From Chloroflexota bacterium (lineage in GTDB: Bacteria > Chloroflexota > Anaerolineae > B4-G1): a stretch of 9,605 bases of DNA. The notes beneath the pieces are model-generated. The model was not told where the DNA came from. It did not search any database and saw only the letters and a list, made by a program, of their open reading frames with translations. A program made the translations under genes and the position numbers. The DNA is taken from the NCBI GenBank assembly GCA_024232355.1, contig JAAEPW010001228.1, positions 1 through 9,605 on the forward strand, given 5' to 3'. Below, piece by piece: positions 738 to 8,087 of the stretch; within the stretch, counting starts at the first letter, position 1; each line of letters starts with the position of its first letter.

Positions 738-744
738 AAAGGAG
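738..744 (+). promoter_or_regulatory. Ribosome binding site of the A2M gene
   Basis: AAAGGAG lies 9 nt upstream of the ATG at 754. This is a strong Shine-Dalgarno sequence at ideal spacing and fixes the start of the A2M frame. No comparable site precedes the GTG at 4261, which argues that the downstream half is not an independent gene. Confidence 0.85.
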
Positions 745-753
745 AAGAATATC

Positions 754-3700
754 ATGAATACCATAAATGCAAGTTTACTTGTTCGCAACAAGCGGCGCTG
801 GATCGCCAACGCGCTGCACGTGCTCATCGTTCTGTCCATCGTCGCCGGTTTCAGAGCACTACAATGGGCCGAAACGCTGCCGGAGCGTCTGGACGATCAG
901 CAAACCATCGTGGTGGGGCCAACCCGTTTCGCACCCGATAGCGACGGGTCGGTGCGCGTGGTGGTGCAGGACTTTGGTAATGGACGCCCCATCGCTGACG
1001 CTCGTGTCAAGGTCAGTCTGAAACCGGCCCGTGGGAGGGCGATCTCGCTCTTTGAGGGGCGGACCGACGAGACCGGCAGTTTGCCCGTCAGATTTCACGT
1101 GCCCGCCGATGTGTCTGCCGATGCGCACCTCATCGTAGAGACCCGCTCGAACGTGGGGCGCGACCGGGTGGAACAAGCGGTGACCATCCAGCGCGAGTAT
1201 CGGCTGCTTTTGTCCACCGACAAGCCGCTTTATCAGCCCGGCCAGGTGATCCACATGCGGGCGTTGGCCCTCAGTACCTTTGACCTGACCCCCGCCCGTG
1301 GCGCGACGATCAACTTTTTGGTGGAGGACGCCAAAGGGAACAAGGTCTTTCGCCAGGCTGTGACCACGTCCGACTTTGGCATTGCCGCCGCTGATTTTAT
1401 CCTGGCTGATATGGTCAACCAGGGGAATTACAAGCTCAGCGTCGCCATCGGGGATACGATTTCGGAGCGCACGGTGGAGGTGCGACCTTATGCCTTGCCA
1501 AAGTTTGGCGTCAATATCTCCACCGGCCGCAGCTTTTACCTGCCCGGCCAGCGGGTGGAGGGAACCGTGCAAGCCGATTACTTTTTCGGCAAGCCGGTGG
1601 CCGAGGGACAAGTGCAGATCGTCGGCAGCGTGTGGGACGTGGAGCGTATGGTGGTGGTCGATCTGCAAGGCGAGACGGACGAGAACGGAACCTACGAGTT
1701 CGGCTTTGACCTGCCCGAATACTTTGCCGGGCCAGGGTTGGACGTGGGGCAAGCCCAGTTCGGGTTGGAGGTGACGGTGATTGACCAGACCGAGCACCCG
1801 GAGCAGGTCAGCCAGGTGTTGCCCGTCGCCGCCCAGCCGTTGCTCATCGAGGCGGTGGCTGAGAGCGGCGCGCTCAGGCCGGGCGTCGAGAACGTCGTCT
1901 ACGTGCTCACCTCCTACCCCGATGGCCGCCCCGCGCCGACGCAGTTACGAATCCGCGTGAATCTCGGAGAAGCCGTGGAACTCGCCAGCGGCGAGTTTGG
2001 TTTGACAGAGTTCGCCTTTACGCCCCAACCGGGGCAGCAACACGTCTTGAATATTTATGCCCAGGACGAGACGGGCGTCAAGTCCGAGCGGCAGGTGAAT
2101 TTTGAGACCGAGTCTGGCAGCGACAACGTGCTGCTGCGCGCCGACCGGGCCGCCTACGTCGTCGGCGAGACGATGAACCTGGCTGCCTTTACGCCGGTCG
2201 AGTCTGGCAGCATCTATCTGGATATCGTCAAGGATGGGCAGACGCTCTCCACCCGCTCGGCCAGGGTTTCAGGAGGAAAAGTCGAGTTTGCCGTGGACGT
2301 GAGCGCCGATCTGTACGGCACGCTGGAACTACACGCCTACAAGGTGCTGCTTGACGGAACCATCGTGCGCGACACGCGGCTAGTGGTGGTGGACGCGCCC
2401 AACGACCTCGCTATCGCCGTCGACGCAGACAAGGACACGTATCTGCCGGGCGAGATGGCGGTGGTTGACTTTCAGACCAGCGCCGCCGGACAGGGGGATG
2501 GGGTTCAGACAGCATTGGGCCTGGCAATCGTGGACGAATCGGTCTTTGCGCTGCAACGCCAGGACCCTGGTTTCGCCAAGCTCTACTTTATGTTGGAGCA
2601 AGAATTGATGGAACCCTTTTACCAGGTCCAGGGTTTTACGCTGCCCGCCGCCATTTCTCCTGACGAGGAGTACGTCCGGTTGGCGCAGGACCAGGCGACC
2701 AAGGCGACCTGGGCTGGAGCGCCGGTGCTGGCGGCTTCTCAACCAACCTACTCACGCCAGGAAAAGATAGACGCGTCTTACCAGACGCAGGCTGAGACCT
2801 TTGACCGCGTCGGTCAGGCGGCGGCGGTTGGCTTGATCGCGGTCCCACTGTTGCTGATGCTTGTGGCCGTCGGCGCTCTGAGGCGGGCAGGGATCGTGAA
2901 ACGCTCGCTCACACGACTGCTCACCACCGTCGGGGGCTTTGTGCTGGTAGGGCTATGTCTGGGCATCAGTCTGTTCCCGATGGTGGAGGGGGGCAATACC
3001 TTTGTTCTGGAGAGGGCGCTCGTTTTGCTGGCGTTCGTACTTGGCCTCGGGGTGCTGATCTTTGCCGTCTATGTCTGGGTCAGGGGCGACCCGACGGCCA
3101 AATTCTTCATGTTGCTGACCCTGATCTGGCCCGCTCTCTTGCTTCTGTTGATCAAAGCTTCGGACCGGGGCGGTGACCCGTCGGAGGGGTTGATCCTGGC
3201 GGGGCTGGTGGCCTATCTGCTTATCCCTGGCGCGTATCTACTCTTTGGTCAGACGCCTTGGGTGCAGGAGCGCCGTCTGGTCCAGACACTGGTCAATGGA
3301 GTGGGGACGATGACGGCGCTGCCCGCGATGTTGATTCTTCCGCTGCTTTTGTTTTCTTCCCTATCGGCTGATAGGATGAGGGGTGGGCCGCCCGACGCGC
3401 TCCAATTTGAAGCACCGGAAGAAGTCTGGGTCGAGCAGGTGGCTATGGAGGTCGAGGTAGTGCTAGAGGCAGAGGCAGTGATGGATATGCCAGCAGCGGA
3501 GCCTATGGAGCATGGAGCGAACGACGCCGAGAATCAGACTGCCGGAGCAGAGGCCCCGCGCCTGCGCCAGTATTTCCCAGAGACCCTCTACTGGGCGCCA
3601 GAGGTGGTCACTGACGAGGGCGGCTTTGTCTCGCTGGAAATCCCGATGGCCGACTCGATCACCACCTGGCGGCTGACAGCGCTGGCCTCGTCGCAGGATG

Positions 3701-5682
3701 GGCGGCTGGGATTCACGACGCGCGGTGTGCGGGTGTTCCAGGACTTTTTCGTGGACGTTGACTTGCCCGTCTCGCTGACGCAGGGGGACGAGATCAGCAT
3801 CCCGGTGGGGGTGTTCAACTATTTACCCGACGCGCAAGATGTGCGGCTGGTGGTAGAGCCGGAATCCTGGTTCGAGCTGCTGGACGCGGACTTGGCGGAG
3901 CAGACGTTGACCATCGCTTCCAACGACATCGAGGTGGTCTATTTCCCCATCCGCGTGCTCAAATTCGGGCGGCGGGGTTTCCAGGTGACGGCCTGGGGGA
4001 AGCAGATGGCGGATGCTGCGCATCCGGGCGACGCTATCCGCCGCGAGGTGAACGTCGTGCCGGACGGCAAGGAATTCCGCTTTAGTGAAAGCAACTGGCT
4101 GCGCGAGAACGAAGAGTTCGAGATCGGCATCCCGCCGGAGGCTGTGCCAGATACGGGCTACGTCGCGGTCAAGGTCTATCCTGGGGTGATGGCCCAGGTG
4201 GTGGAGGGACTGGAAAAGATACTTCGCCTGCCAAGTGGCTGATTCGAGCAAAGTACGTCGGTGACGTACCCGAATGTGCTCGTGCTAGACTATTTGCAGA
4301 CGACCGGCCAGACGAATCCCGAATTGCAGTTGCAGGCCGAAAAGTACGTGGCAACCGGCTACCAACGATTGTTGACCTTTGAGGTGAACGGCGGCGGTTT
4401 CAGTCTCTTTGGGCAACCCCCGGCGCGGCCCTTTCTCACCGCGTTTGGGCTGATGGAGTTCAACGATATGGGCCAAGTCTACCCGGTGGACGAGGCCCTG
4501 ATCGAGCGGACGGCCCGTTGGCTGCTCGACCAACAACAATCGGACGGAACCTGGAGCGACTCGGGGCAATCCGAGCACTGGCGCATCAATTCCGCAGCGC
4601 CCACCACCGCCTACATCGCCTGGGCGTTGATCGAGGCGGGCTACGAGGACACGCCGGAGGTTGGCCGGGCCATTGCCTACATCCGCGAATCCGCATCAGG
4701 GGAAGATGATGCCTACAGCCTGGCCCTGATCGCCAACGCGCTGGCCGCCTACGCCCCCGACGACTCGACGACCAAGGCGGCGATGGAGCGGCTGTACGAG
4801 ATGCGCGTAGAGGATGGCGACGCTTTCTACTGGCCGATAGGCGGCGCTTCGTTCATGGGCGCGACCGGCCAGAGCGGCAGTATGGAGACGACGGCGCTGG
4901 CGGCCTACGCCTTTATGCGGGCGGGCGTCTATTCAGACGCGACGGGCGGCGCGCTGGCGTATCTGATCCAATCGAAGGATAGTTGGGGTACGTGGCAGAC
5001 GACCCAGGCCACGATTCTCACGCTCAAGGCACTGTTGCTGGCGACCGAGCAGATGGGTGAGACGGCAGGCCCGGCCACGGTGCGGGTGAGCTTGAACAAA
5101 GAGTTGACGCAAGAGATCATCATAGATGAGGGCAACAGCGACGTGGTACACGTGGTCAGCTTTGATCGCGGCTTTTCGCCCTCGGGCAACAACCGGGTGC
5201 AGATCGAACTCGAGGGTGGCGGCAACTTGATGTATCAGGTAATGACTCGCTACTATTTACCCTGGGATCGAGTGGAATCCCTGCCCGCGGCGGAGGAACT
5301 CATCACCATCGACGTGGGCTATGACCGAATGCAACTGGCCGTCAACGACGAGGTGACGGTGGATGTGGGGGTGAGGTTGAACGAAGCGGGTGTGGTCCAG
5401 ATGGCGCTGGTCGACCTGGGCGTGCCGCCGGGCTTTACGGTGCTGGCGGAGGATCTGAGCCGCCTGGTGGAGCGAGGCATTATCTCCCAGTATGAGCTGA
5501 CCGGCAGGCAGATCATCATTTATCTGGAGAACCTGGCGTATGAAGCGCCGTTGTCCTTTAACTACCGGCTGAGGGCGCGGTTCCCGATGCGGGCGCAGAC
5601 GCCGCCGTCCAGTGCGTATGACTATTACAATCCGGGCGATTTGACGGTGCAGCCGCCGTTGGAGGTCGTGGTGAGGGAGTAG
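754..5682 (+). CDS. Alpha-2-macroglobulin family protein, probable selenoprotein (in-frame TGA at the thioester cysteine)
   Basis: 1642 codons if the TGA at 4240-4242 (residue 1163) is read as selenocysteine; TAG stops at 5680-5682. A2M proteins trap or tag proteases and other targets through a Cys-Gln thioester and here would act on the outer face of the membrane. Visible order: basic N-terminus and signal anchor (about 19-37); macroglobulin domains with the MG2 motif TDKPLYQPGQ (155-164) and YLPGQ/YLPGE echoes (262-266, 563-567); VDESVFAL (593-600); six membrane helices (about 691-709, 722-742, 754-775, 784-801, 812-832, 848-869); an acidic segment (880-935); MG7/A2M domain (about 940-1040, FPETLYW at 942-948); thioester motif Gly-Sec-Phe-Glu-Gln (1162-1166); alpha-toroid thioester domain (to about 1440); C-terminal receptor-binding-like domain (PPGF 1558-1561, YDYYNP 1622-1627). 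The frame is undamaged on both sides of the TGA, and the second half has no start signal of its own. Alternatives are a recent nonsense mutation of TGC/TGT or a sequencing error. Confidence 0.9.
4240..4242 (+). other. In-frame TGA codon, proposed selenocysteine of the thioester motif
   Basis: The frame reads Leu-Pro-Ser-Gly, TGA, Phe-Glu-Gln-Ser-Thr-Ser-Val-Thr-Tyr-Pro-Asn-Val. Bacterial A2M proteins conserve Pro-Ser-Gly-Cys-x-Glu-Gln here, and the Cys forms a thioester with the Gln. TGA therefore replaces precisely the one reactive cysteine, a third-base difference from TGC or TGT. Cys-to-Sec exchange at a nucleophilic position is the classic pattern by which selenoproteins are recognised. 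TGA serves as a normal stop at 8085-8087, so the genetic code as a whole is standard. The selA, selB, selC and selD genes needed for decoding are not in the window. Confidence 0.7.
4245..4282 (+). promoter_or_regulatory. Bacterial SECIS-like stem-loop downstream of the TGA
   Basis: Upper stem GTACGTC (4253-4259) pairs perfectly with GACGTAC (4263-4269) around the triloop GGU (4260-4262). Lower stem CGAGCA (4245-4250) pairs perfectly with TGCTCG (4277-4282). The asymmetric internal loop between them is AA against CCGAATG. The apical loop begins 17 nt after the TGA. In known bacterial SECIS elements, a short hairpin with G at the first or second loop position lies roughly 16-37 nt from the UGA and binds SelB; the E. 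coli fdhF loop also carries GGU. The element lies within codons 1165-1177, so it must satisfy both the protein and the RNA fold. The folding is by eye; no energy was calculated. Confidence 0.65.
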
Positions 5683-5767: not shown

Positions 5768-5893
5768 CCTTCAAGTTGCTTTCCTCAGGTGGTTCCTAGT
5801 GCACACCGTTCACACTCGTTTGTGGTGAAAAATTAAAGCTCTCCGGCCAGTGCAGGGCCGCACGGCGAGCAGGTACGAACGACGAAATTGGTG

Positions 5894-5899
5894 TATAAT
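5894..5899 (+). promoter_or_regulatory. Consensus -10 box (TATAAT) at the start of the deacetylase gene
   Basis: A perfect TATAAT lies 10 nt before the ATG at 5910 and overlaps another ATG at 5898. If used, transcription would begin near 5906, giving a leader of only a few bases. No TTGACA-like -35 is visible around 5871-5876, and no Shine-Dalgarno sequence precedes either ATG. Leaderless or near-leaderless expression is therefore inferred. Confidence 0.5.
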
Positions 5900-5909
5900 G
5901 TCCACCACA

Positions 5910-7094
5910 ATGGAAACTACCTTTATCTGCACAGACGAACTGTGGGCGCGGGGCTTTGGCGAATCGCACCCACTGAAACCAGAGCGACTGAAGCGTACGT
6001 ACGATCTGCTGATGGCCTACAGCGCTTTCGACGCGCCCAACTCGCGCCTGGTTGCGCCGGTCCCGGCCAGTCGGGAGGAACTGCTCTTGTTCCACACCGC
6101 CGAATACGTGGACGCCGTCGCCAGGTTGAGCGGTGCTATGAGCCCTCAGCCCCTGGGTCCGAGGACCAGGGGCTTGCCGAAAGGCGATGGTGGGGAACGT
6201 GTATCAGCCTGGCGCTATGGCTTTCGTTCCAACGAGACCCCCGTCTTTCCGGGTATGTACGAGAGCGCGGGCCTCAGGGTGGGAGCGGCCCTGACGGCGG
6301 CCAGATCGGTCATTAACGGGCAAGCGCACACAGCCTTTAGCTTTGCTGGGGGGATGCACCACGCGCGGCAGGCGCTGGCGTCCGGATTTTGCATCTTTAA
6401 CGACGCGGCGGTAGCCATCCATTGGCTGCTGCGCCAGGGGCTGCGGGTGGCCTACGTGGACATTGACGTACACCACGGTGACGGCGTCCAGGCCGCATTC
6501 TACGACACCGACCAGGTGTTGACCATCTCGCTGCACCAGGCAGGCATCCGCTTCTATCCCGGCACCGGTTTTTCTGATGAATTGGGGACCGGCGCGGGAT
6601 ATGGGTACAGCATCAACGTGCCATTCCTGAGATACACGGGCGAAGAATTGTACCTGCGAGCCTTTCGCCAGGTGGTGGTGCCACTGGTGCGTCAATTCGC
6701 CCCCGATGTGCTGGTGACTCAACTGGGCGTGGACAGCCACTATCGCGATCTGCTGGGCTCACTGCGGTTGACGACGCACGGTTACGTCGCCTTGATCGAG
6801 GAATTCAAGACGTTGGACGGCGACGTCGGACGGTGGTTGGCCCTGGGCGGCGGGGGATACGCCGTGGACGTGGTGCCGCGCACGTGGACGTTGGCATACG
6901 GCGTGATGTCGGGCCAGACTTTTATGGACGATCTGCCGTCTGCGTACGGCGAGCGGTACGGCCCCGGACATCTGCACGATACCACAGGTCCGGAGCCGGT
7001 GGAAACGTGGGTGATTGAGGATACCCGCAAGTACGTCGAAAAGAGCATCTCTACCCTCAAAGCCCAGACACAAGATGTGTGGCGATGGGAGTAG
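5910..7094 (+). CDS. Histone deacetylase-family amidohydrolase (AcuC-like)
   Basis: 394 residues from ATG 5910, ending in TAG at 7092-7094. Proteins of this arginase/deacetylase fold are zinc enzymes that remove acyl groups from lysine side chains or small amines such as polyamines; AcuC deacetylates acetyl-CoA synthetase in Bacillus. All hallmarks are present: FAGGMHHA (145-152) with the paired catalytic histidines, DIDVHHGDG (184-192) giving the zinc ligands Asp186 and His188, GVDSH with the third ligand Asp275, and GGGGY with the transition-state tyrosine (317). Length fits the bacterial family. The start is uncertain: ATG 5898 in the same frame overlaps the TATAAT box and neither ATG has a ribosome binding site, so 5910 is preferred. 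It stands alone between a terminator and a palindromic spacer. The substrate cannot be told from the sequence. Confidence 0.9.
   Translation: METTFICTDELWARGFGESHPLKPERLKRTYDLLMAYSAFDAPNSRLVAPVPASREELLLFHTAEYVDAVARLSGAMSPQPLGPRTRGLPKGDGGERVSAWRYGFRSNETPVFPGMYESAGLRVGAALTAARSVINGQAHTAFSFAGGMHHARQALASGFCIFNDAAVAIHWLLRQGLRVAYVDIDVHHGDGVQAAFYDTDQVLTISLHQAGIRFYPGTGFSDELGTGAGYGYSINVPFLRYTGEELYLRAFRQVVVPLVRQFAPDVLVTQLGVDSHYRDLLGSLRLTTHGYVALIEEFKTLDGDVGRWLALGGGGYAVDVVPRTWTLAYGVMSGQTFMDDLPSAYGERYGPGHLHDTTGPEPVETWVIEDTRKYVEKSISTLKAQTQDVWRWE
6148..6174 (+). repeat. Palindrome inside the deacetylase gene
   Basis: AGCCCCTGG (6148-6156) is perfectly inverted as CCAGGGGCT (6166-6174) with a 9-nt loop. It encodes the Pro/Gly/Arg-rich stretch PQPLGPRTRGLP, in a loop between two conserved blocks of the fold. 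It may be an in-frame insertion of a small palindromic repeat. Confidence 0.5.
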
Positions 7095-7107
7095 AATCTG
7101 GTTGGAT

Positions 7108-7192
7108 ACAGAGAAGACACAGAGTCACAGAGAATATAACCAAAATGCCTTTTCTCCGCGTTACTCTGTGAAATGCTCCGTGAAACTCTGTG
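7108..7192. repeat. CACAGAG/CTCTGTG intergenic palindromic repeat
   Basis: The spacer between the deacetylase and exonuclease genes has ACAGAG at 7108-7113 and CACAGAG at 7118-7124 and 7126-7132, then the complementary CTCTGTG at 7164-7170 and 7186-7192 with a variant CTCCGTG at 7175-7181. The arms can form a long imperfect hairpin. Such short-word palindromic spacers are scattered in many environmental genomes; their role is unknown. The hairpin could shield or attenuate the following transcript, which is inference. Confidence 0.6.
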
Positions 7193-7217
7193 TAACAACC
7201 CAGGTTGGCAGTTACGC

Positions 7218-7222
7218 AAGGA
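7218..7222 (+). promoter_or_regulatory. Ribosome binding site that sets the exonuclease start
   Basis: AAGGA lies 7 nt before ATG 7230. The frame is open from an earlier ATG at 7173, but that start lies inside the palindromic repeat and lacks such a site. The conserved protein also begins only after 7230. Confidence 0.65.
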
Positions 7223-7229
7223 CATTAGA

Positions 7230-8087
7230 ATGAGCAAGTTTCACGCTGACTCGATTACCCAGTTCGATCTCCATCAACCGCTAGGCGAAACCATCTTTGC
7301 CGTCTTTGACGTCGAGACCACCGGTTTGAGCCCGGCCTACGGCCATCGCATTTGCGAAGTGGGATGTTTGCGTGTTTGTAACGGCCAAGAACTGGATCGC
7401 TTTGAGTCATTGGTAAACCCACGACGACCGATCTCGCCCGGAGCCTTTCGCGTCAATCGTATCACGGCAGAGATGCTACGAGGGGCACCTACCTTTGAGC
7501 AAGTCGCCGGCCCCTTGCTGCAAGTGATTGAGGGCGCGGTATTGGTGGCTCATAACGCCCCCTTTGACCTGGGTTTCCTGGCAGCGGAACTCGGGGTTGC
7601 GCGCTTGCCCGTGCCCGAAAATCCGGTGATAGACACCTTGGCTTTGGTACGCCGCACCTACAGCTTGCCCCGAAACAGCCTGTCCGCCGTCGTCGCAGCC
7701 CTGGGCGTAACGGTCAGCCCGACCCACCGGGCGCTGAGTGACGTGCAGGCTACTTGCGGTGTCTTGGAACGAATCATTGAGGACCTGGAGCGCCGTCAGG
7801 GAATCACCACGTTGGGGCAACTGATCGAGTTTCAGGGTGGTCCAATTCCTTATCCACACGCTCGTGCCCTATCCTTGCCGCCGACCATCACCGAGGCGTT
7901 GGAAAACGGAGGGCGGGTGCAGATGCGTTACATAGATGCCAGGGGCCGAGAAACAGATCGTCTGGTGCGCCCCATACGTGTGAATGCGCGGGGAGGTGTC
8001 CTGTATCTGATCGCCCATTGCTTCCGGCGTGACGAAATGCGCACCTTTCGACTGGATCGTGTGGTGGAGATGGCACTGGAAGAATGA
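7230..8087 (+). CDS. DnaQ-like 3'-5' exonuclease with C-terminal WYL-like domain
   Basis: 285 residues, TGA stop at 8085-8087. The N-terminal two thirds is a DEDDh exonuclease of the DNA polymerase III epsilon type, a two-metal enzyme that removes nucleotides from 3' ends. ExoI is FDVETTG with Asp27 and Glu29, ExoII is AHNAPFD with Asp113, and ExoIII is HRALSD with His166 and Asp171, so the active site is complete. The C-terminal 60-70 residues (about 217-285: RVQMRYIDARGRETDRLVRP, then YLIAHCFRRDEMRTFRLDR) match the strand pattern of WYL domains, which sense nucleic acid or nucleotide ligands in regulators. The protein lacks the polymerase-binding context of true DnaQ, so a repair or nucleic-acid-clearance role is more likely than replicative proofreading. 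It follows the palindromic spacer and has its own ribosome binding site. Confidence 0.88.
   Translation: MSKFHADSITQFDLHQPLGETIFAVFDVETTGLSPAYGHRICEVGCLRVCNGQELDRFESLVNPRRPISPGAFRVNRITAEMLRGAPTFEQVAGPLLQVIEGAVLVAHNAPFDLGFLAAELGVARLPVPENPVIDTLALVRRTYSLPRNSLSAVVAALGVTVSPTHRALSDVQATCGVLERIIEDLERRQGITTLGQLIEFQGGPIPYPHARALSLPPTITEALENGGRVQMRYIDARGRETDRLVRPIRVNARGGVLYLIAHCFRRDEMRTFRLDRVVEMALEE

Follow-up and report, generated by a model that had tools for sequence, protein, structure and literature searches.

Selenocysteine predicted at the thioester cysteine of a bacterial alpha-2-macroglobulin family

Introduction

Thioester proteins such as alpha-2-macroglobulin (A2M), complement C3/C4 and the insect TEPs form an ancient line of defence, and their chemistry has been taken to rest on a cysteine. 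The locus described here raises the question of what an A2M gene encodes when the codon for that cysteine is TGA. It lies in a window, by which we mean the whole stretch of 9,605 nt that was analysed (contig JAAEPW010001228.1 of a Chloroflexota bacterium), where a listing of open reading frames gives 754-4242 (1162 residues) and 4261-5682 (473 residues). Counting TGA as a residue joins these into a single A2M frame on the plus strand, 754-5682, with 1642 codons and a TAG end at 5680-5682. We think it probable that this is an A2M gene whose UGA at the Cys codon is decoded as selenocysteine (Sec) by way of the hairpin that follows it, with the Sec forming an internal selenoester with Gln.

An A2M gene with one in-frame TGA

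A preliminary description, made from the letters of the window, had held that the 1642-codon frame contains exactly one internal stop, a TGA, at the Cys of the motif Pro-Ser-Gly-Cys-x-Glu-Gln, and that the neighbouring Glu-Gln is intact. Translation agrees on both points: the sole internal stop is the TGA at 4240-4242 (residue 1163), within Pro-Ser-Gly-TGA-Phe-Glu-Gln at 4231-4251. The features of the gene are as follows.

738-744, plus strand: Shine-Dalgarno-like AAAGGAG, 9 nt upstream of the ATG (sequence)
754-5682, plus strand: A2M-family gene, 1642 codons, one in-frame TGA, TAG end (ORF listing, translation, Pfam)
1204-1482, plus strand: MG2 domain (PF01835), residues 151-243 (Pfam)
2134-2553, plus strand: bait-region domain (PF07703), residues 461-600 (Pfam)
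2824-3354, plus strand: six hydrophobic peaks, a predicted membrane insert, residues 691-867 (Kyte-Doolittle)
3583-3849, plus strand: A2M domain (PF00207), residues 944-1032 (Pfam)
4186-5034, plus strand: thioester domain (PF07678, TED_complement), residues 1145-1427 (Pfam E 9.7e-45, AlphaFold2, PDB fold matches)
4231-4251, plus strand: thioester motif, its TGA position being Cys in 119/119 other listed homologs
4240-4242, plus strand: predicted Sec codon (TGA), residue 1163 (translation, codon alignment)
5398-5643, plus strand: A2M receptor/C-terminal MG domain (PF07677), residues 1549-1630 (Pfam)

Seven Pfam families exceed the cut-off, six of them A2M-type and in the order MG2, MG3, bait-region, A2M, TED and C-terminal A2M, an arrangement that includes the domain order (MG2, bait-region, A2M, TED, C-terminal) by which A2M membership is recognized. 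The CxEQ motif would be present if Sec counts as a Cys equivalent: Glu-Gln is in place, and TGA replaces the Cys codon. An AlphaFold2 model of residues 1110-1450, calculated with Cys substituted for Sec (pLDDT 87.7, pTM 0.86), has chains of A2M, TEP1, A2ML1, CD109 and C4 as its best 20 PDB fold matches; the model confirms the predicted thioester-domain fold and says nothing of the bond. The six hydrophobic peaks lie between the bait-region and A2M domains, and peaks at residues 600-950 recur, again six in number, in 92 of the 103 listed homologs of at least 1500 residues; a membrane insert of several passes seems an uncommon feature in an A2M. There is also an N-terminal hydrophobic peak (residues 17-35).

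TGA at the cysteine codon of relatives

A protein search returned 5220 matches, the best 120 of which comprise the window's own N-terminal half and 119 others. Among these best 120, all 119 other homologs have Cys at the TGA position, and the residue after FEQ is Thr in every one of them and Ser in the window. This Ser codon of the window forms part of the hairpin described below; Ser after FEQ also occurs in one of the 51 FEQ-type Cys genes that were read as DNA (L089).

A genome collection of 84,980 species was then scanned with the pattern GG-TGA-NNN-GAR-CAR-N12-ACN-TAY-CCN-AAY, in which TGA is fixed. The scan gave 36 stretches (GG-TGA-x-E-Q-(4)-TYPN) in 31 genomes, from Chloroflexota, Planctomycetota, one member of Abditibacteriales and two other bacterial MAGs (two matches in one of these), and in 36/36 the thioester domain continues beyond the TGA as far as the contigs extend. 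The TGA motif had no match in viral contigs. Searches with protein queries (E <= 1e-15), in which any stop was counted, avoid the TGA bias of the pattern scan. They found matches in 13 of 201 Chloroflexota genomes (14 matches, 1 with TGA), in 39 of 249 Anaerolineae genomes (42 matches, 12 with TGA) and in 57 of 246 Planctomycetota genomes (90 matches, 30 with TGA). Although the preliminary description had named random other stops in relatives as the mark of a decaying gene, neither TAA nor TAG occurs in any match of these three draws, a few of which miss the codon, and all 42 TGAs of the Anaerolineae and Planctomycetota draws sit at the Cys codon. They are spread over 12 Anaerolineae genomes (7 already known from the pattern scan, 5 new) and 21 Planctomycetota genomes (11 already known, 10 new), such that 15 of the 33 TGA genomes in both draws are outside the pattern scan's 31.

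From these draws we fetched the loci of 66 of the 90 Planctomycetota and 35 of the 42 Anaerolineae matches, including all those with TGA; one locus, L109, misses the codon. The codon was read in 150 rows, as TGA in 79, TGC in 51, TGT in 18 and TCT in one, with one gap. Dropping 22 exact duplicates, the gap row and the TCT row left 126 distinct sequences, 57 with TGA and 69 with Cys (51 TGC and 18 TGT). As 36 of the 57 TGA genes come from a search that specified TGA, these counts should not be read as frequencies. Among the 69 Cys genes, 18 have motifs of other types that are more distant. The search for homologs with TGA aligned to Cys that had been proposed at the outset thus yields 57 distinct sequences, the window included. 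One-base changes can create a stop within the frame in 491 ways, of which 56 give TGA, and a random stop would land on this particular codon about once in 500, odds that are insufficient alone after a large scan; the same-codon TGA in 56 other distinct sequences is far beyond chance.

Glu-Gln is kept in all 57 TGA genes. Since the pattern itself demanded it in 36 of them, only the window and 20 others test this freely. One A2M relative (L110, the TCT row) has a Ser codon for the Cys and has lost Glu-Gln as well; here the whole motif is gone, unlike in the TGA genes. A few sequences have a Cys adjoining or near the predicted Sec, namely L021/L163 (UCEQ; L021) and L175 (UFEQC). Three Planctomycetota genomes, G006, G017 and G024, each have three TGA-bearing A2M paralogs, and G006 and G024 also have Cys ones; Sec and Cys paralogs occur together in some genomes, for example G024 and G003.

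A SECIS-like hairpin downstream of the TGA

Two elements of predicted RNA structure follow the TGA in the window.

4245-4282, plus strand: outer stem of the predicted hairpin fold, arms 4245-4250 and 4277-4282 (MFE fold)
4253-4269, plus strand: SECIS-like hairpin, arms 4253-4259 and 4263-4269, loop GGU at 4260-4262

The bacterial SECIS model, as given in the available portion of PMC13188914, has a loop of 3-9 nt with G in its first two positions, a spacing of 16-37 nt and an MFE <= -7.5. The hairpin of the window, GUACGUC-GGU-GACGUAC, starts at the 11th nt after the TGA and has 7 bp and a GGU loop 17 nt after the TGA, and so agrees with the model in spacing and in the G among the first two loop positions. 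Taken singly it is not exceptional: the MFE fold has a z-score of -0.83, with 43 of 200 shuffles folding equally well, and the helix score has a synonymous-shuffle p of 0.19. Under the SECIS model none of 60 recodings of the window folds equally well, the best structure in that case being one in another register, with loop UGACGUAC at 19 nt, and not the GGU hairpin. A search of the window against Rfam gave nothing up to E 1, and the window contains no tRNA.

Across the family, with 60 synonymous recodings per gene as the null, structures that agree with the published SECIS model were found in 34 of 57 TGA genes, versus 11.3 expected, and in 5 of 69 Cys genes, versus 6.5 expected. Since 23 of the 57 TGA genes lack such a structure, part of the family has either an atypical SECIS or one that the scan missed. 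Within the Chloroflexota clade 19 of 22 TGA genes agree with the model and the remaining 3 fail by energy. A helix of at least 6 bp at the 17-nt spacing, with loop G[GU][UC], occurs in 24/57 TGA genes versus 0/69 Cys genes, and in the Chloroflexota clade in 22/22 TGA genes versus 0/15 Cys neighbours. It is also present in L175, a sequence from the Planctomycetota draw that lies among Planctomycetota Cys genes on the tree, with two base pairs reversed on both sides. Some Planctomycetota TGA genes have the hairpin in other registers. In a second hairpin class from Planctomycetota (nine sequences, chosen by eye as one class), 92.2% of cells are paired and both-side changes are seen at 7 of 10 pairs; four of five covariation measures were reached by 0/500 shuffles and the fifth (further pair types) by 2/500, and none of six slides came near.

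Selection beyond the TGA

The nearest relative, L019, also has the TGA, and is 87% identical to the window after it. Between the two, which are separated by 0.50-0.66 synonymous changes per site, dN/dS is 0.289 before the TGA (1143 codons) and 0.144 after it (479 codons), and in all 12 pairs tested the values are below 0.32 before and below 0.26 after the TGA. This shows that the codons beyond the TGA are under purifying selection, as protein in frame.

Selenocysteine machinery in the genomes of relatives

A lack of Sec machinery had been listed beforehand among the findings that would speak against Sec; in the relatives the opposite is seen. SelA or SelB is present in all 31 pattern-scan genomes, and 18 of the 31 have SelA, SelB, SelD and tRNA-Sec together, including G018, the genome of L019. 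Taken separately, matches over the cut-off were found for SelA in 29, SelB in 25 and SelD in 28 of the 31. The two SelA exceptions are G020, with only a piece at a contig end, and G004, with none; left out of the SelB count are G015 (match at a contig end) and G029 (match in two pieces). In G009, a genome of one 5.35 Mb contig with a Sec-A2M, SelA and tRNA-Sec, only a 42-residue start of SelB is visible (G009:C1 near 135772-135897, L182) before the sequence runs into a stretch of 200 N. A tRNA-Sec with a UCA anticodon is supported by ARAGORN in 23 of the 31 genomes (one locus per genome, 30 genomes run); Rfam tRNA-Sec matches over the gathering score, in 29 of 31, include ordinary tRNAs. SelD itself contains an in-frame TGA, counted anywhere within the match, in 26 of the 31 genomes, and the hosts therefore likely have at least one other selenoprotein. 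One SelD match (G008:C225:19805-20722) differs from the others listed in containing a TAG as well as a TGA.

Such machinery is common in both groups (SelA exceeds the cut-off in 207 of the 249 Anaerolineae genomes and in 163 of the 246 from Planctomycetota), and its presence is therefore necessary rather than telling. Fisher tests of association used SelA matches at E <= 1e-60 (209 Anaerolineae, 164 Planctomycetota). In Planctomycetota SelA accompanies 19 of 21 genomes with a Sec-A2M versus 145 of 225 without (p 0.015); in Anaerolineae there is no association (11/12 versus 198/237, p 0.70), and SelA does not separate Sec from Cys genomes there because most have it.

Exchange of predicted Sec and Cys

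A quick tree was made from the 126 sequences, with the Sec/Cys codon and the next nine codons removed. It requires 14 Sec/Cys changes, counted without direction, of which at least 10 are forced by well supported branches; 37 of its 123 inner branches are open, and there are long-branch warnings for L081, L158 and L021 with L162. Repeated exchange on this quick tree points to one job done by both.

Discussion

Decoding and chemistry

The placement of Sec at the thioester Cys, which the preliminary description had proposed, is strongly supported by the TGA-only homologs, the SECIS-like hairpin, the machinery in the genomes of relatives and the purifying selection past the TGA. For the family, we infer that the UGA is almost certainly decoded as Sec by SelB and the hairpin; in the window's own host, Sec insertion is likely.

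The sequence of events that we propose is the following. The ribosome would meet the UGA, and SelB with Sec-tRNA(Sec) would bind the hairpin at 4253-4269 and insert Sec. The exported protein would then fold with the Sec side chain joined to Gln1166 and shielded in the thioester domain, as in the Cys homologs, until a protease cuts the bait region and exposes the selenoester. A Lys or hydroxyl of the target would attack the acyl group, the selenolate would depart faster than a thiolate, and the target would be held covalently. The scheme follows that of the Cys A2Ms, whose CxEQ thioester, according to the accessible text of PMC4498604, stays protected until the bait is cut and a Lys of the protease can reach it. 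Phenyl and alkyl selenoesters are stronger acyl donors than thioesters, and the available part of PMC12728643 attributes this chiefly to a leaving group of lower pKa. Because the Gln and its surroundings are kept (Glu-Gln in 57/57, 20 of them unforced besides the window), a Sec-Gln selenoester, which the preliminary description had already inferred, is the economical prediction, and we regard it as the most likely chemistry, with good though not decisive odds, judging from the sequences. Such a selenoester may, on the other hand, hydrolyse too fast to be useful.

Somewhat more guardedly, we favour a wider reading in which the family would have a genetically encoded internal selenoester, with Sec as the leaving group of an electrophilic acyl trap (UxEQ), in Chloroflexota, Planctomycetota and one Abditibacteriota genome, and in which Sec and Cys would have been swapped back and forth many times, tuning the speed of the warhead.

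Alternative explanations

The TGA might have arisen by a sequencing error, or by a recent nonsense mutation in a gene that is being lost, and the window indeed comes from a single contig. Yet 57 distinct sequences have TGA at one codon where TAA and TAG are never seen, in G553 a TGA case is part of one 9.5 Mb contig, L019 shares the TGA across 0.50-0.66 synonymous changes per site with a dN/dS of 0.14 after it, and the 1642-codon frame has no other stop; error or decay is contradicted by these observations, and we give it next to no weight. A general reassignment of TGA was also considered and rejected, as the exonuclease gene at 7173-8087 of the window ends in TGA. Recoding tRNAs of the suppressor or tRNA-Cys(UCA) kind are known, and if one of them decoded the TGA as Cys or another standard residue, read-through alone would equally explain the selection past the TGA. 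A general suppressor needs no hairpin, however, and the TGA genes have a SECIS-like one that the Cys genes lack; with tRNA-Sec (UCA) in 23 of 31 genomes, SelA in 29, SelB in 25 and a TGA in SelD in 26, decoding by such a tRNA is very improbable.

Two further possibilities accept Sec and differ in what it does. It is unlikely, though deserving of more weight than any other alternative, that Sec is inserted but makes no selenoester, and instead works as a selenol in redox chemistry or peroxide reduction, or links to the target through a selenenylsulfide. The majority of characterised selenoproteins, according to the available part of PMC13188914, have a thioredoxin-like fold with a redox motif, and a few relatives do have a Cys near the Sec (L021, UCEQ; L175, UFEQC). 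A redox role would have no need of the Gln, though, which is kept in 57/57 TGA genes (20 found without demanding it); the domain set is that of an A2M, with no redox domain found by Pfam; and the 14 Sec/Cys changes on the quick tree, 10 of them forced, point to one shared job. The UGA might also be a selenium-responsive switch, giving a 1162-residue form that lacks the thioester domain when selenium is absent and the full trap when it is present. Sec insertion generally has to compete with termination at UGA, and the short form, ending immediately ahead of the reactive residue, would not contain it; against this, the short product would be without most of the thioester domain and without the C-terminal MG domain. 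As an account in its own place we think a switch improbable, and it is compatible with Sec forming a selenoester; both could be true.

Known systems and novelty

In animals, CD109, human A2M, TEP1 and complement C3/C4 use a Cys thioester, and C5 has none; we know of no Sec member among CD109, human A2M, TEP1 and C3/C4. The window matches these proteins in sequence over the A2M, thioester and C-terminal domains (8s3o, E 7.8e-73) and in the fold of the thioester domain, and differs in having UGA where they have the Cys of the thioester. Closer to hand are the Cys FEQ-type A2Ms of Anaerolineae and Planctomycetota (for example P0002-P0005, L085 and L117), which have the family, tree and motif in common with the window and are of similar length, but have TGC or TGT for TGA and lack the helix of at least 6 bp at the 17-nt spacing (0/69 Cys genes). 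With E. coli ECAM and Salmonella SaA2M, bacterial A2Ms that are anchored in the cell envelope (PMC4498604, in the portion available), the window shares MG domains, a bait region, a CxEQ-type thioester domain and a C-terminal MG domain; it differs in the UGA (predicted Sec) for the Cys of CxEQ, in the six hydrophobic peaks between the bait and A2M domains, and in that its best PDB sequence matches are animal proteins. As in known bacterial selenoproteins described in the accessible sections of PMC13188914, the UGA is aligned to Cys and a SECIS-like hairpin lies just downstream, with the machinery present in the genomes of relatives.

The preliminary description had stated that no selenoprotein is described in the A2M family, and the literature searched is in accord with this. 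A2M is absent from the 119 families and subfamilies in Table 1 of PMC13188914, the portion of this 2026 inventory that was available, and the word 'macroglobulin' is absent from the main texts of PMC13188914, PMC9312934, PMC12013277, PMC8318568, PMC4807772 and PMC5029168. A search of titles and abstracts for selenocysteine or selenoprotein together with macroglobulin or thioester found no such protein, and the NCBIfam selenoprotein models have no match to the window protein at E <= 0.001. We conclude that this is a new selenoprotein family within the known A2M family, with a possibly new use of selenium; it would be new for a Sec to carry an acyl group instead of serving in redox chemistry or metal binding.

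If this is true, the Sec form extends the use of selenium to acyl-transfer chemistry, and the 57 Sec and 69 Cys sequences of one family are a natural comparison for judging what selenium does to a covalent trap. The known selenoproteins would gain a large member (~1640 residues), one that standard gene finders split in two, as the ORF listing of the window does, and encoded selenoester domains might be usable as fast tools for protein ligation or capture.

Gene neighbourhood

A common partner is absent from ten neighbouring ORFs of six Sec-A2M loci. Downstream of the A2M gene, the window encodes a histone-deacetylase-family protein (5850-7094, PF00850) and a DnaQ-like exonuclease fused to a WYL domain (7173-8087), both without an evident link to A2M. 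The contig of L019 (genome G018) has an apparent second Sec-A2M downstream in tandem (L024; MG2-bearing start L019:3-806), and directly upstream of L019 is an ORF for a TPR-CHAT protease-like protein (5973-8000, minus strand).
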